DNA of 64,000 nt from Gammaproteobacteria bacterium (GTDB taxonomy: Bacteria > Pseudomonadota > Gammaproteobacteria > Nevskiales > Nevskiaceae). Shown here piece by piece: positions 13,570 to 19,060 of the stretch (within the stretch, counting starts at the first letter, position 1; the number at the start of each line of letters is the position of its first letter). The translations under genes and the position numbers were made by a program. The notes below the pieces were generated by a model, which saw nothing but the letters and a program-made list of their open reading frames with translations, had not been told where the DNA came from and made no database searches. The stretch is taken from assembly GCA_016182805.1 (NCBI GenBank), contig JACPFV010000008.1, forward strand, positions 1 through 64,000, in the 5' to 3' direction.

Positions 13570-13573
<4 letters not shown>
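12908..13573 (+). CDS. maf: Maf-family nucleoside triphosphate pyrophosphatase
   Basis: 221 aa. Housecleaning enzyme that hydrolyses non-canonical or excess dTTP/UTP (YhdE type). The motifs LASRSPRRQELL, GADTDVVVDGQILGKP and YAIQGLGARFVRSISGSYSGVVGLPLYE are present. The C-terminus extends about 20 residues beyond the usual end before its stop overlaps the rng ATG (ATGA), so the maf-rng pair is coupled as in other gammaproteobacteria. Confidence 0.93.
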
Positions 13574-15075
<1,502 letters not shown>

Positions 15076-15267
15076 GAGCCCGTTATGCCGTTGTCGACCA
15101 CTGCGACGCCCCTGGGAAGGCCCAGGGGCGTCCCTGCGGGTGGCGCCCCCAAGCGCGCCATGCGTTGTTGCTCGGGTCCTTGCATAGAGTCTATGCGGCG
15201 TCCCTCGCGCCTAGCCTGGCGCGCTTGGGGGCAGCCACGCAGCGACCGGCAACGGCATAACGGGCTC
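15076..15267. repeat. 192-bp nested palindromic element between rng and yhdP
   Basis: It starts the base after the rng stop and ends 5 bp before the yhdP ATG. Outer arms: perfect 18-bp inverted repeat, 15076-15093 with 15250-15267. Inside it lies a perfect 12-bp hairpin (15105-15116 with 15121-15132, loop AAGG). A second long stem pairs 15145-15160 with 15217-15232 (16 bp perfect, continued by 5 bp after a bulge). At its tip is a small GCATAG/CTATGC hairpin (15182-15196). The whole folds as a branched, cloverleaf-like structure. It could be a non-autonomous palindromic repeat (MITE/REP class) or a structured RNA in the rng-yhdP transcript. Confidence 0.85.
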
Positions 15268-15271
15268 TAAA

Positions 15272-18200
15272 ATGGAACGCAGCCGCCGCCGCCTCTGGAC
15301 CCGCCTCATCACCGCGACCGCCATCCTCATGGTGGCGGCCGCGGTGCTGTCCGGCCTGTTCCAGATCGCGGTGCTGGCGGTGCCCGGCTACCGCCAGGAC
15401 CTGGCGGGCTGGGTCAGCCGCCTGGCCGGCCGGCCGGTGCGCATCGGCACCCTGGCCCTGACCTGGCGCGGCTACTACCCCAGCCTGGACCTGGGGCAAG
15501 TCGAGATCCGCAGCCCGGACGACCGGCGCACCGTGCTGGTGCTGGAGCGCGTCCGCCTGGGCCTGGGCTTCACGCGCCTGGTCGCCGGCGACTTCACGCC
15601 GCGGCGCCTGGAGCTGAGCGGCATCGCGCTGCGCGCGCGCCTGGATCGCGACGGGCGCTTTCACCTGCTCGGCCTGGACGAGGCGGGCGGGCCGGACGCC
15701 GATTTCGCCGAGGCCCTGGCGCAGCTCGAGCGCTTCAGCCGCGTGCAAGTCCTGCGCTGCACCCTGGAGCTGCGCGACGAGCGGCGCGACGGCGAGACGC
15801 AGCTCTACACCCTGACCGAGGCCGCGCTGGAAAGCGGCCTGCTCGGCCGCGAGTTCGAGGCGGAGCTGCGCCTGCCGTCGGCGTTGGGCGAGACCCTGCG
15901 CCTGGACGCGGATTTCACCGGCGCGCTGCCGCGCTGGGAAACCTGGGACGGGAGCTACCGCGCCGAGCTGCGGCGCCTGGCCGGCGCGGGCTGGCTGCGC
16001 CCCTGGCTCGCGCCGGGCGCGCACGTGGAAGTCGAGGACGCCGTCCTGCGCAGCCAGGGCCGTTTTGCCGCCGGGCGGCTCGAGGACGCCTGGCTGAGCC
16101 TGTCCGCGCGCGCCATCCGCGCGCAGCGCGCCGGCCACGGCGCCGAGCTGCGCCGCCTGGCGGCCTGGGCGCAGCTGCGCCGGCAGGAGCCGGGCTGGGA
16201 GCTGACGCTGCAGCGCCTGTCGGCCGAGGGCGCGCAGGGTTCCTGGCCGGAGATCCGCGGCCGCGCCGGCTTCGAGCTGGCGGATGGGCATCCGCGCGCG
16301 CTCGACGCCGAGCTGAGCCACCTGCCGCTGCACGACCTCGCGCCCTGGCTGGCGATCCTGCGCACGCCGTCCTGGCTGTCCGACCTGCACGACGTGTCCG
16401 GCCTGGTGCGCGGCCTGCGCCTGCGCTGGACGCCGGGGGCCGCGCCGCCGCTGGCGGTGCGCGCGGAATTCGACGGCCTGCGCCTGCCGGCGGCGGGCCG
16501 CCGCGTCGGCTTCGACGGCCTGTCCGGCAACTTCGCCGTCGACGAGACCGGCGGCCGCCTGGTGCTCGAGGAGCGGCCGCTGCAACTGGAGCTGCCGGAC
16601 GCGATGAGCGAGGCCGTCGCCTTCGATCGCCTGTCGGCCGAGGCGCAGTGGCGGCAGGACGAGCAGGGCTGGAGCGTGGTGGCGCCGCGCCTGGCCTTCG
16701 CCGTGGCCGGCGCCGAAGGCCAGGCGCAGTTCGAGCTGCGTCTGCCGCCGGAGCGCTCGCCCGAGCTGAAGCTGCACGCGCAGTTCGCCGCCGCCGACGC
16801 CACGCGCCTGAAGCGCTACATGCCGCGCCGCTGGGGCGAGGGCCTGCGCGGCTGGCTGGACCGCGCGATCCGCGCCGCGCGCGTGCCCCGGGGCGAACTG
16901 GCGATCGAGGGCGCGCTGCACGACTTTCCGTTCCGGGACAAGCCGGGCCGCTTCGCCCTGGACCTGGAGGTGGCCGACGCCGAGCTGGCGTTCTCGCCGG
17001 ACTGGCCGGCGATCCTGGGCCTGCACGCGCAGCTCGCCTTCCGCGGCAACAGCCTGACCATCGCCGGCGACGCCGGCACCCTGGCCGGCACCTCGATCCA
17101 GGCGGTGAGTGCGCGCTTCGCCGACTTCGCCGAGGCGCGCCTGGAGATCGACGGTCGGGTCGCCGGCGAGCTGCCGCAGTACTACGAGGTGCTGCGCGCG
17201 AGCCCGCTCGCCGCGCGCTTCGCCGGCCTCACCGAGCACAGCAGCGGCGCCGGGCCGGCGCGGGTGGACCTGCACCTGGACATCCCGCTGCACGACGCCC
17301 ACAAGACCGCGACGCGCGGCAGCGTGAGCCTGGACCAGGTCGAGCTGCGCTACGGCGCGCTCGACGAGCCGCTGCGCGCGATCCGCGGCGTACTGGCGTT
17401 CGACGACCACGGCGTCACCGCCGAGCGCATCGGCGGGCGCTTCCACGAGCTGGAGCTGGTCGGCCGCATGAGCGCGCAGGACGGCGTGAGCACGCTGGAC
17501 GCGGATTTCGAGTTCGCGCCCAAGGCCGGCGGCGAGGGCGCGAGCGGCCTGGTCCCGGCCTGGCTGCGCCGCGCGCTGTCGGGCAAGAGCCGCTGGCAGG
17601 CGCGGATGGCCTTCGGCGGCGCGGCGGCCGGGGGCCTGCTGCTCTCCTCCGAGCTGGAAGGCACCGCCATCGCCCTGCCGGCGCCGCTCAACAAGCCGGC
17701 GGAGGCGGTGAGCCCGCTGCGCCTGCGTTTTCTCACCGACGACAAGTCGCCGCTGCGGCTGGCGGTCGACTACGAGCTGCGCCTGGGCGCCGACCTGCGC
17801 TTCGCGGCCGCGCGCGGCGGCGGACTGACGCTGGCGCGCGGGGCGCTGCGCCTGGGGCCCGGCGAGCCGCCCGCGGCACAGGGGCCGGGGCTGGTGCTGT
17901 CCGGCAGCGTGCCGCAGCTCGATCTGTTTGCCTGGTCGGCCGCTCTGCGCGGTGCCGGCCTGGAGCAGCAGGCCGGCGCGCTCAAGCACGCCGAACTGCG
18001 CGCCAACCTCACCCTGCTCGGCGACTACGCCCTGCGCGACAGCGCCCTGGTCCTGGACCCGGTGCCTTCGGGCTGGCGCATCCAGCTTTCCGGTGCCGGC
18101 GCCGAGGGCGAGCTGAACTGGCGCGACCCCGGCGCCAAGGCCGGCGGCCCGGCGCTCAGCGCGCGGCTGGCGCGGCTGGCGCTGGACCATCGCGGCCTGG

Positions 18201-19060
18201 CGGAGGAGGCGGGCGCGGCCGAGGGCGCGCCGCTGCACCCGGGCGAGCTGCCGACGCTGGACCTGGAGGTCGGCCGCCTCACCATCGGCAAGACCGAGCT
18301 GGGCCGCGTCGCGGTGCTGACGCAGCGCATCGCCGACGGCCAGAAGCTGCTGGCGCTGCGCGCCGGCGGCGGCATCGCCACGCTGGAGGGCAGCGGCGCC
18401 TGGACCCGGGCGCAAGGCAAGTCCGCCGCCGAGTTCGATTTCGACCTCGCCAGCAGCGACATCGCCGGGTTGCTGCGCTCGTTCGGCTTTGCGCCCAACC
18501 TCGACGCGAAACAAAGCCGCGTGCGCGCCAGCCTGGCCTGGACGCCGGCGGCGGCCGGCGTGTCCTGGACCCAGGCGCGCGGCAGCGTCGACCTGGAATT
18601 CGGCAACGGCCAGTTGCGCGCGGTGGAGCCGGGCGCCGGCCGCGTGCTGGGCCTGATCAACTTCTACGCGCTGCCGCGCCGGCTGTCGCTCAACTTCCGC
18701 GACGTGGTGTCCAAGGGCCTGGGCTTCGACCGCATCCAGGGCCGCTTCCAGCTCGCCGACGGCAACGCCATGACCGACAAGATCGACATCGCCGCGCCGT
18801 CGCTGCGCATGGAGATGCGCGGCCGCATCGGCCTGGCCGCGCGCGACTACGACCAGTTCGTGCGCGTCTATCCCGACGTTTCCGCCGGCGTCACGCTGGG
18901 CGCCGCGCTGCTCGGCGGCCCGGCGCTGGGCGCCATCGCCCTGGTCGCGCAGGAAGTGCTGAACAAGCCGCTGGACCAGGCCACGCAGCTTTTCTACCGC
19001 CTCACCGGCAGCTGGGACAACCCAAAGCTGGAGCCGGTGCGCAACGGCAATTCCGGATGA
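15272..19060 (+). CDS. yhdP: YhdP family AsmA-like phospholipid-transport protein
   Basis: 1262 aa. One N-terminal membrane helix (ITATAILMVAAAVLSGLFQIAVLAV) anchors a very long periplasmic beta-strand repeat region of the AsmA/TamB/YhdP type. The conserved C-terminal block NFRDVVSKGLGFDRIQGRF and MRGRIGLAARDYDQ is present. In E. coli YhdP bridges the inner and outer membranes and carries phospholipids outwards, redundantly with TamB and YdbH. The length matches E. coli YhdP, and the position between rng and tldD is conserved. Confidence 0.95.
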   Translation: MERSRRRLWTRLITATAILMVAAAVLSGLFQIAVLAVPGYRQDLAGWVSRLAGRPVRIGTLALTWRGYYPSLDLGQVEIRSPDDRRTVLVLERVRLGLGFTRLVAGDFTPRRLELSGIALRARLDRDGRFHLLGLDEAGGPDADFAEALAQLERFSRVQVLRCTLELRDERRDGETQLYTLTEAALESGLLGREFEAELRLPSALGETLRLDADFTGALPRWETWDGSYRAELRRLAGAGWLRPWLAPGAHVEVEDAVLRSQGRFAAGRLEDAWLSLSARAIRAQRAGHGAELRRLAAWAQLRRQEPGWELTLQRLSAEGAQGSWPEIRGRAGFELADGHPRALDAELSHLPLHDLAPWLAILRTPSWLSDLHDVSGLVRGLRLRWTPGAAPPLAVRAEFDGLRLPAAGRRVGFDGLSGNFAVDETGGRLVLEERPLQLELPDAMSEAVAFDRLSAEAQWRQDEQGWSVVAPRLAFAVAGAEGQAQFELRLPPERSPELKLHAQFAAADATRLKRYMPRRWGEGLRGWLDRAIRAARVPRGELAIEGALHDFPFRDKPGRFALDLEVADAELAFSPDWPAILGLHAQLAFRGNSLTIAGDAGTLAGTSIQAVSARFADFAEARLEIDGRVAGELPQYYEVLRASPLAARFAGLTEHSSGAGPARVDLHLDIPLHDAHKTATRGSVSLDQVELRYGALDEPLRAIRGVLAFDDHGVTAERIGGRFHELELVGRMSAQDGVSTLDADFEFAPKAGGEGASGLVPAWLRRALSGKSRWQARMAFGGAAAGGLLLSSELEGTAIALPAPLNKPAEAVSPLRLRFLTDDKSPLRLAVDYELRLGADLRFAAARGGGLTLARGALRLGPGEPPAAQGPGLVLSGSVPQLDLFAWSAALRGAGLEQQAGALKHAELRANLTLLGDYALRDSALVLDPVPSGWRIQLSGAGAEGELNWRDPGAKAGGPALSARLARLALDHRGLAEEAGAAEGAPLHPGELPTLDLEVGRLTIGKTELGRVAVLTQRIADGQKLLALRAGGGIATLEGSGAWTRAQGKSAAEFDFDLASSDIAGLLRSFGFAPNLDAKQSRVRASLAWTPAAAGVSWTQARGSVDLEFGNGQLRAVEPGAGRVLGLINFYALPRRLSLNFRDVVSKGLGFDRIQGRFQLADGNAMTDKIDIAAPSLRMEMRGRIGLAARDYDQFVRVYPDVSAGVTLGAALLGGPALGAIALVAQEVLNKPLDQATQLFYRLTGSWDNPKLEPVRNGNSG

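Follow-up and report, generated by a model that had tools for sequence, protein, structure and literature searches.

What is the long palindrome that fills the gap between rng and yhdP in this member of the Nevskiaceae, and is it connected with the RNase G encoded beside it? Within the window, the 64,000-nucleotide stretch of DNA analyzed as a whole, the element occupies 15076-15267 on the plus strand (192 bp, delimited by sequence reading and comparison of copies). Its neighbors are intact reading frames on the same strand, rng upstream (RNase G; 13570-15075, stop codon TGA) and yhdP downstream (15272-19060), and the insertion spares both. The gap is filled bar TAAA (15268-15271), a tight fit that the sequence-only reading had described correctly: the element begins directly after the rng stop at 15075 and ends at 15267, before the yhdP start at 15272. 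Between 12908 and 19922 the gene order is Maf-like, rng, yhdP and nitrilase-like, the cluster familiar from E. coli, and the element is its sole interruption. By its rng (69% identical) the host is placed near Solimonas, and wherever the rng-yhdP gap of relatives was readable, the element was absent.

The branched palindrome itself was recovered in all the parts originally reported. Direct reading gives outer arms of 18 bp without mismatch, at 15076-15093 and 15250-15267; the left terminal inverted repeat (plus strand) reads GAGCCCGTTATGCCGTTG, an end type present at 19 places in the host genome (a reversed control gave 0 matches), and the right one (minus strand) is its perfect complement. 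A side hairpin at 15105-15132 (plus strand) pairs 15105-15116 with 15121-15132 over 12 bp, again without mismatch, around an AAGG loop. The inner stem of 21 bp combines 16 bp (15145-15160 with 15217-15232) and 5 bp (15140-15144 with 15234-15238), interrupted by a single bulged A at 15233, and closes a larger hairpin, H2 (15140-15238, plus strand; arms 15140-15160 and 15217-15238), within which the terminal hairpin GCATAG/CTATGC (15182-15196, plus strand) pairs 15182-15187 with 15191-15196. Folding of 15060-15285 yielded -152 kcal/mol vs -101 +/- 4.6 in dinucleotide shuffles (n=200; z = -11), a stability far beyond chance. No terminator-like or promoter-like pattern was found inside the window element, and no stem followed by a T-run that could serve as an intrinsic terminator.

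A search of the host genome (a 2.07 Mb assembly, about 80% complete) returned about 12 places related to the window element, so the multi-copy nature that the sequence-only reading had proposed to look for is present. They include C2:92464 (86%), C28:17216, C49:13115-13378, C49:70112, C35:23218-23484 and C47:19751-20018, most of the resident copies being 76-88% alike; at five additional places only the two ends are present, spanning about 50 bp. The window copy is flanked on the left by GA (15074-15075) in place of the usual TA, these two bases belonging to the rng stop TGA, and on the right by TA (15268-15269), probably the remnant of the target site. Dispersed copies, sharp ends, TA flanks and the empty site in relatives all speak for the insertion of a palindromic element, as had been suggested; that it happened recently is not evident, since the left TA is degenerate and the copies have diverged to the extent given above.

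Judging from sequence comparison, the window copy is a trimmed member of an element of 263-268 bp; full-length copies measure 264-268 bp in relatives, with sharp ends and unrelated flanks, and 263-268 bp across the class. TA stands on either side of most family and class copies, often with CTA before the element and TAG behind it, as expected of a target-site duplication; the window copy itself has GA and TA. The inverted ends of the full element read GGGYCTGTTRACA, and repeats of the GRGYCTGTTRACA type adjoin the TA target, which is often CTAG. Copies of the family share one order: a terminal repeat GGGTCTGTTGACA, a variable spacer, GATCGCTGCG, hairpin H1, a junction GTCCC-TTCG-GGG, hairpin H2 and the inverse of the start. 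By inspection, H1 (left) and H2 (right) seem to be inverted copies of each other, both imperfect hairpins with an internal-loop motif in common, and the internal-loop positions are near-invariant. Comparison with full-length copies identifies the 12-bp side hairpin of the window as the collapsed remnant of H1, a form shared with C2:92464 in a local 190-bp subfamily, and the core of junction (CCC..GGG) and H2 (15132-15240, plus strand) matches covariance model R1 with 99.9 bits. One resident copy, L004:1501-1762 (the C49:13115-13378 copy of the host genome, G000), carries an extra ~72 bp in the H2 loop region.

The element thus has the attributes of a MITE: it is short (50-268 bp), has no coding capacity, ends in perfect or near-perfect terminal inverted repeats and occurs in several dispersed copies. 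Paired ends in relatives were spaced only 264-268 or 50-53 bp apart, plus a few other spacings such as 159 bp, and no autonomous copies were found between more distant matching ends in these genomes. An autonomous parent with the same interior was likewise not found, and origin of the element from an IS is thus only a possibility. Minimal forms of 50-53 bp, made up of the two ends only, were observed in G019, G007 and G000 (e.g., L191:2547-2598, L147:1503-1555 and L015:548-599); several of those in G000 have their own common spacer, which suggests that minimal forms move on their own.

Ends like those of the element were found on IS5-family (DUF4096/DDE transposase) sequences, namely L292, L263 and IS in the carrier genomes G181, G021 and G018. 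L292 is an 862-bp element in a viral contig (NF033580, E 2.8e-79); the scan of viral contigs with a 14-base end gave mostly chance matches, yet it exposed both L292 and L263. Within single genomes, IS and element ends agree at 15/16 bases in G181 (IS end GGGCGTGTTAACACTA vs element end GGGCCTGTTAACACTA), 15/17 in G021 and 14/16 in G018, and in genus g17 the IS of G041 (GGGCGTGTTGCCGTTTC) is similar to the element of G044 (GGGCCTGTTGCCGTTTC); the resident IS of G335 and G380 have ends unlike those of the element. ISAba31, an IS5-family element of 858 bp with a transposase gene, shares with similar IS5-family (DUF4096/DDE) IS the terminal repeat GGGTSTGTTGACACTT and a 2-bp target duplication, and is in these respects like the element described here (PMC4776018); unlike ISAba31, the present element is gene-less, with a different and palindromic interior. 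Because its ends match those of IS5-family IS (up to 15/16 bases within one genome) and of ISAba31, IS5-type transposases probably mobilize the element in trans. No IS5-type transposase was detected in the 80% complete host genome (PF01609 included) or in several carriers, and co-occurrence is weak (7/28 carriers vs 3/28 non-carriers).

Of 369 genomes drawn evenly from the Gammaproteobacteria, 98 matched a covariance model built on the H2 core (with approximate E-values and without individual inspection of weak matches), and the fold of roughly 265 bp is thus estimated to recur in about a quarter of the sampled species. At most of the class loci inspected, the element measures 264-268 bp, is flanked by TA and has ends of the kind GGGCCTGTTAACACTA; a few others are truncated or longer, or lack recognizable ends. 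The same fold, at about 265 bp, occurs on Azotobacter chroococcum plasmids, on a Pseudomonas aeruginosa plasmid and in Halomonas, and phage records gave no match. On two A. chroococcum plasmids (L235:2960-3268 and L236:2990-4429) the element sits at the end of an IS630-family sequence, at a CTAG site and on opposite sides.

The covariation sought among relatives is strong, at other loci. In the family alignment (17 copies), 70/96 pairs had changed on both sides and kept their pairing, and 96.2% of cells were paired vs 75.4% in shuffles and 37-40% when the structure was slid; in the class-wide alignment (26 copies), 69/88 pairs were double-changed and kept, with 93.3% paired and 0/500 shuffles as high. 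The structures were derived from the same alignments, which inflates the contrast with the slid versions, and related copies inflate that with the shuffles; despite these inflations, double changes lie far above both expectations and covariation is very strong. The feature is therefore neither single-copy nor devoid of covariation, the combination that the sequence-only reading had named as speaking against it. Seven copies in G036 (L022, L033, L037, L042, L154, L167 and L180) have spacer arms that are unlike one another and still complementary, the remainder being nearly identical. At terminal-repeat positions 13-22 in this genome, 76/189 pair comparisons differ, 70 of them on both sides with pairing intact and 3 on one side; in H1 and H2, 74/1428 comparisons differ, merely 6 on both sides. 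Because nearly all differences at positions 13-22 are two-sided, unlike those in H1 and H2, the spacer arms change in concert. The simplest reading is template switching (PMC8794818, PMC8604942), in which one arm serves through a hairpin as the template for the other; en-bloc exchange of ends is another.

The membership of a multi-copy family, the sharp ends, the TA flanks, the empty homologous site in relatives, the IS5-type ends and the strong covariation lead us to regard the window feature as, probably, a non-autonomous, gene-less MITE of a Gammaproteobacteria-wide family, inserted in trans by an IS5-type transposase. Such a DUF4096/DDE enzyme would insert the element at TA, often CTAG, and in an ancestor of the host bacterium it would have landed directly behind the rng stop codon; the window copy belongs to the local 190-bp subfamily in which H1 is reduced to a 12-bp stem. 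Complementarity of the arms would be upheld on DNA, because one arm is copied onto the other via the hairpin, because a cruciform is required, or both.

A functional RNA, whose fold would be selected for processing, stability or regulation and either be spread by mobility or be specific to rng-yhdP, for example as a target of RNase G, draws on the very stable fold, the strong covariation and the near-invariant internal loops. Selection on one RNA strand is expected to favor G-U over A-C, and a structured RNA is recognized by strand-specific covariation that tolerates G-U; here the G-U share of standard pairs is 2.0% in the family and 2.6% in the class, hardly above A-C mismatches, which are nearly as common (31 G-U vs 25 A-C and 54 vs 38, respectively). 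Flanking frames, as crudely called, run 11 ++, 8 --, 12 -+ and 9 +-, with no clear orientation bias, an Rfam search with the element matched no curated family, and the element is not conserved at rng, its other copies adjoining unrelated genes in many genomes. We therefore consider a functional RNA unlikely, and the earlier suggestion of selection for RNA structure is not supported; selection on structure as such is conceivable, with the evidence leaning toward DNA. Rare G-U, concerted arm change and the lack of a clear orientation bias favor upkeep of arm complementarity at the DNA level rather than by selection for RNA. Nothing ties the family to rng, and the proposed RNase G target is not supported: the window palindrome bears no particular relation to RNase G, and there is no reason to invoke it. 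A DNA-level function is conceivable, and we offer it tentatively as the less probable possibility that the element is a class-wide DNA cruciform of fixed length (~265 bp) whose two inverted hairpins have near-invariant internal loops recognized by a transposase or host protein, the fold itself being either what the transposition machinery acts on as substrate or a structure retained in the chromosome.

Other transposases were considered as the movers. The two inverted palindromic units recall REP/BIME/REPIN elements, which are likewise dispersed palindromes with inverted units in pairs, and the host genome has a Y1_Tnp gene outside the window (G000:C2:74959-75285). However, those elements are tagged REPs of 20-40 bp moved by RAYTs (PMC3733652, PMC2817692), whereas the present element has long terminal repeats and TA flanks and lacks a tetranucleotide-tagged REP, and Y1_Tnp was not found in carriers G021 and G001 (both incomplete); mobilization of a REP/REPIN-type element by a Y1 (RAYT) transposase is extremely unlikely. 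Derivation from IS630 (Tc1/mariner-like) elements would fit the TA flanks, the CTAG context and the IS630-family sequences adjoining the Azotobacter copies, but its ends match the IS5 type over 14-16 bases, 6/10 carrier genomes yielded no DDE_3 transposase, and no DDE_3 transposase that was found bears the ends of the element, which makes this origin very unlikely. Neither Y1/RAYT nor IS630 DDE_3 transposases track the presence of the element.

The Correia elements (CREE/NEMIS) of Neisseria duplicate TA. Like the present element, they are short, gene-less, mobile, intergenic and stem-forming, with inverted repeats, and RNase III cuts them in transcripts (PMC10969869, PMC2649163); they differ in having other ends, a shorter length, restriction to one genus and no branched fold shared across a class. 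In Coxiella burnetii, QMITE2 is, like the present element, a gammaproteobacterial MITE with a transcript predicted to fold strongly, but has 7-9 bp duplications, another length and other ends (PMC10969869). Searching the literature by end sequence yielded only ISAba31 and by topic no description of the element; coverage was partial and ISfinder lay outside it, so a name may exist. We file the family as a MITE and consider it a new variety, as its length is fixed and its branched fold conserved across the class. The usual view of bacterial MITEs is of remnants of local insertion sequences that are short-lived and bound to one lineage. Here both length and branched fold stay constant over many gammaproteobacterial families while the sequence drifts by paired changes, which is unexpected of a passive relic. 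The family is a tractable system for studying how palindrome arms evolve in concert, as at positions 13-22 of the terminal repeat in G036, makes it testable whether a DNA cruciform forms part of the transposition substrate, and can be annotated by covariance model.

Locally, the element should form a stable stem-loop in an rng-yhdP transcript, which, by analogy with other MITEs (PMC10969869), could be cleaved by RNase III. With its right arm ending five bases short of the yhdP start, the hairpin may occlude the ribosome site and could hinder yhdP translation. In carrier genome G021, many contigs (C35, C37, C42, C69, C80 and C106) terminate about 130 bases into an element, and since they end mid-element, such palindromes seem to break short-read assemblies.
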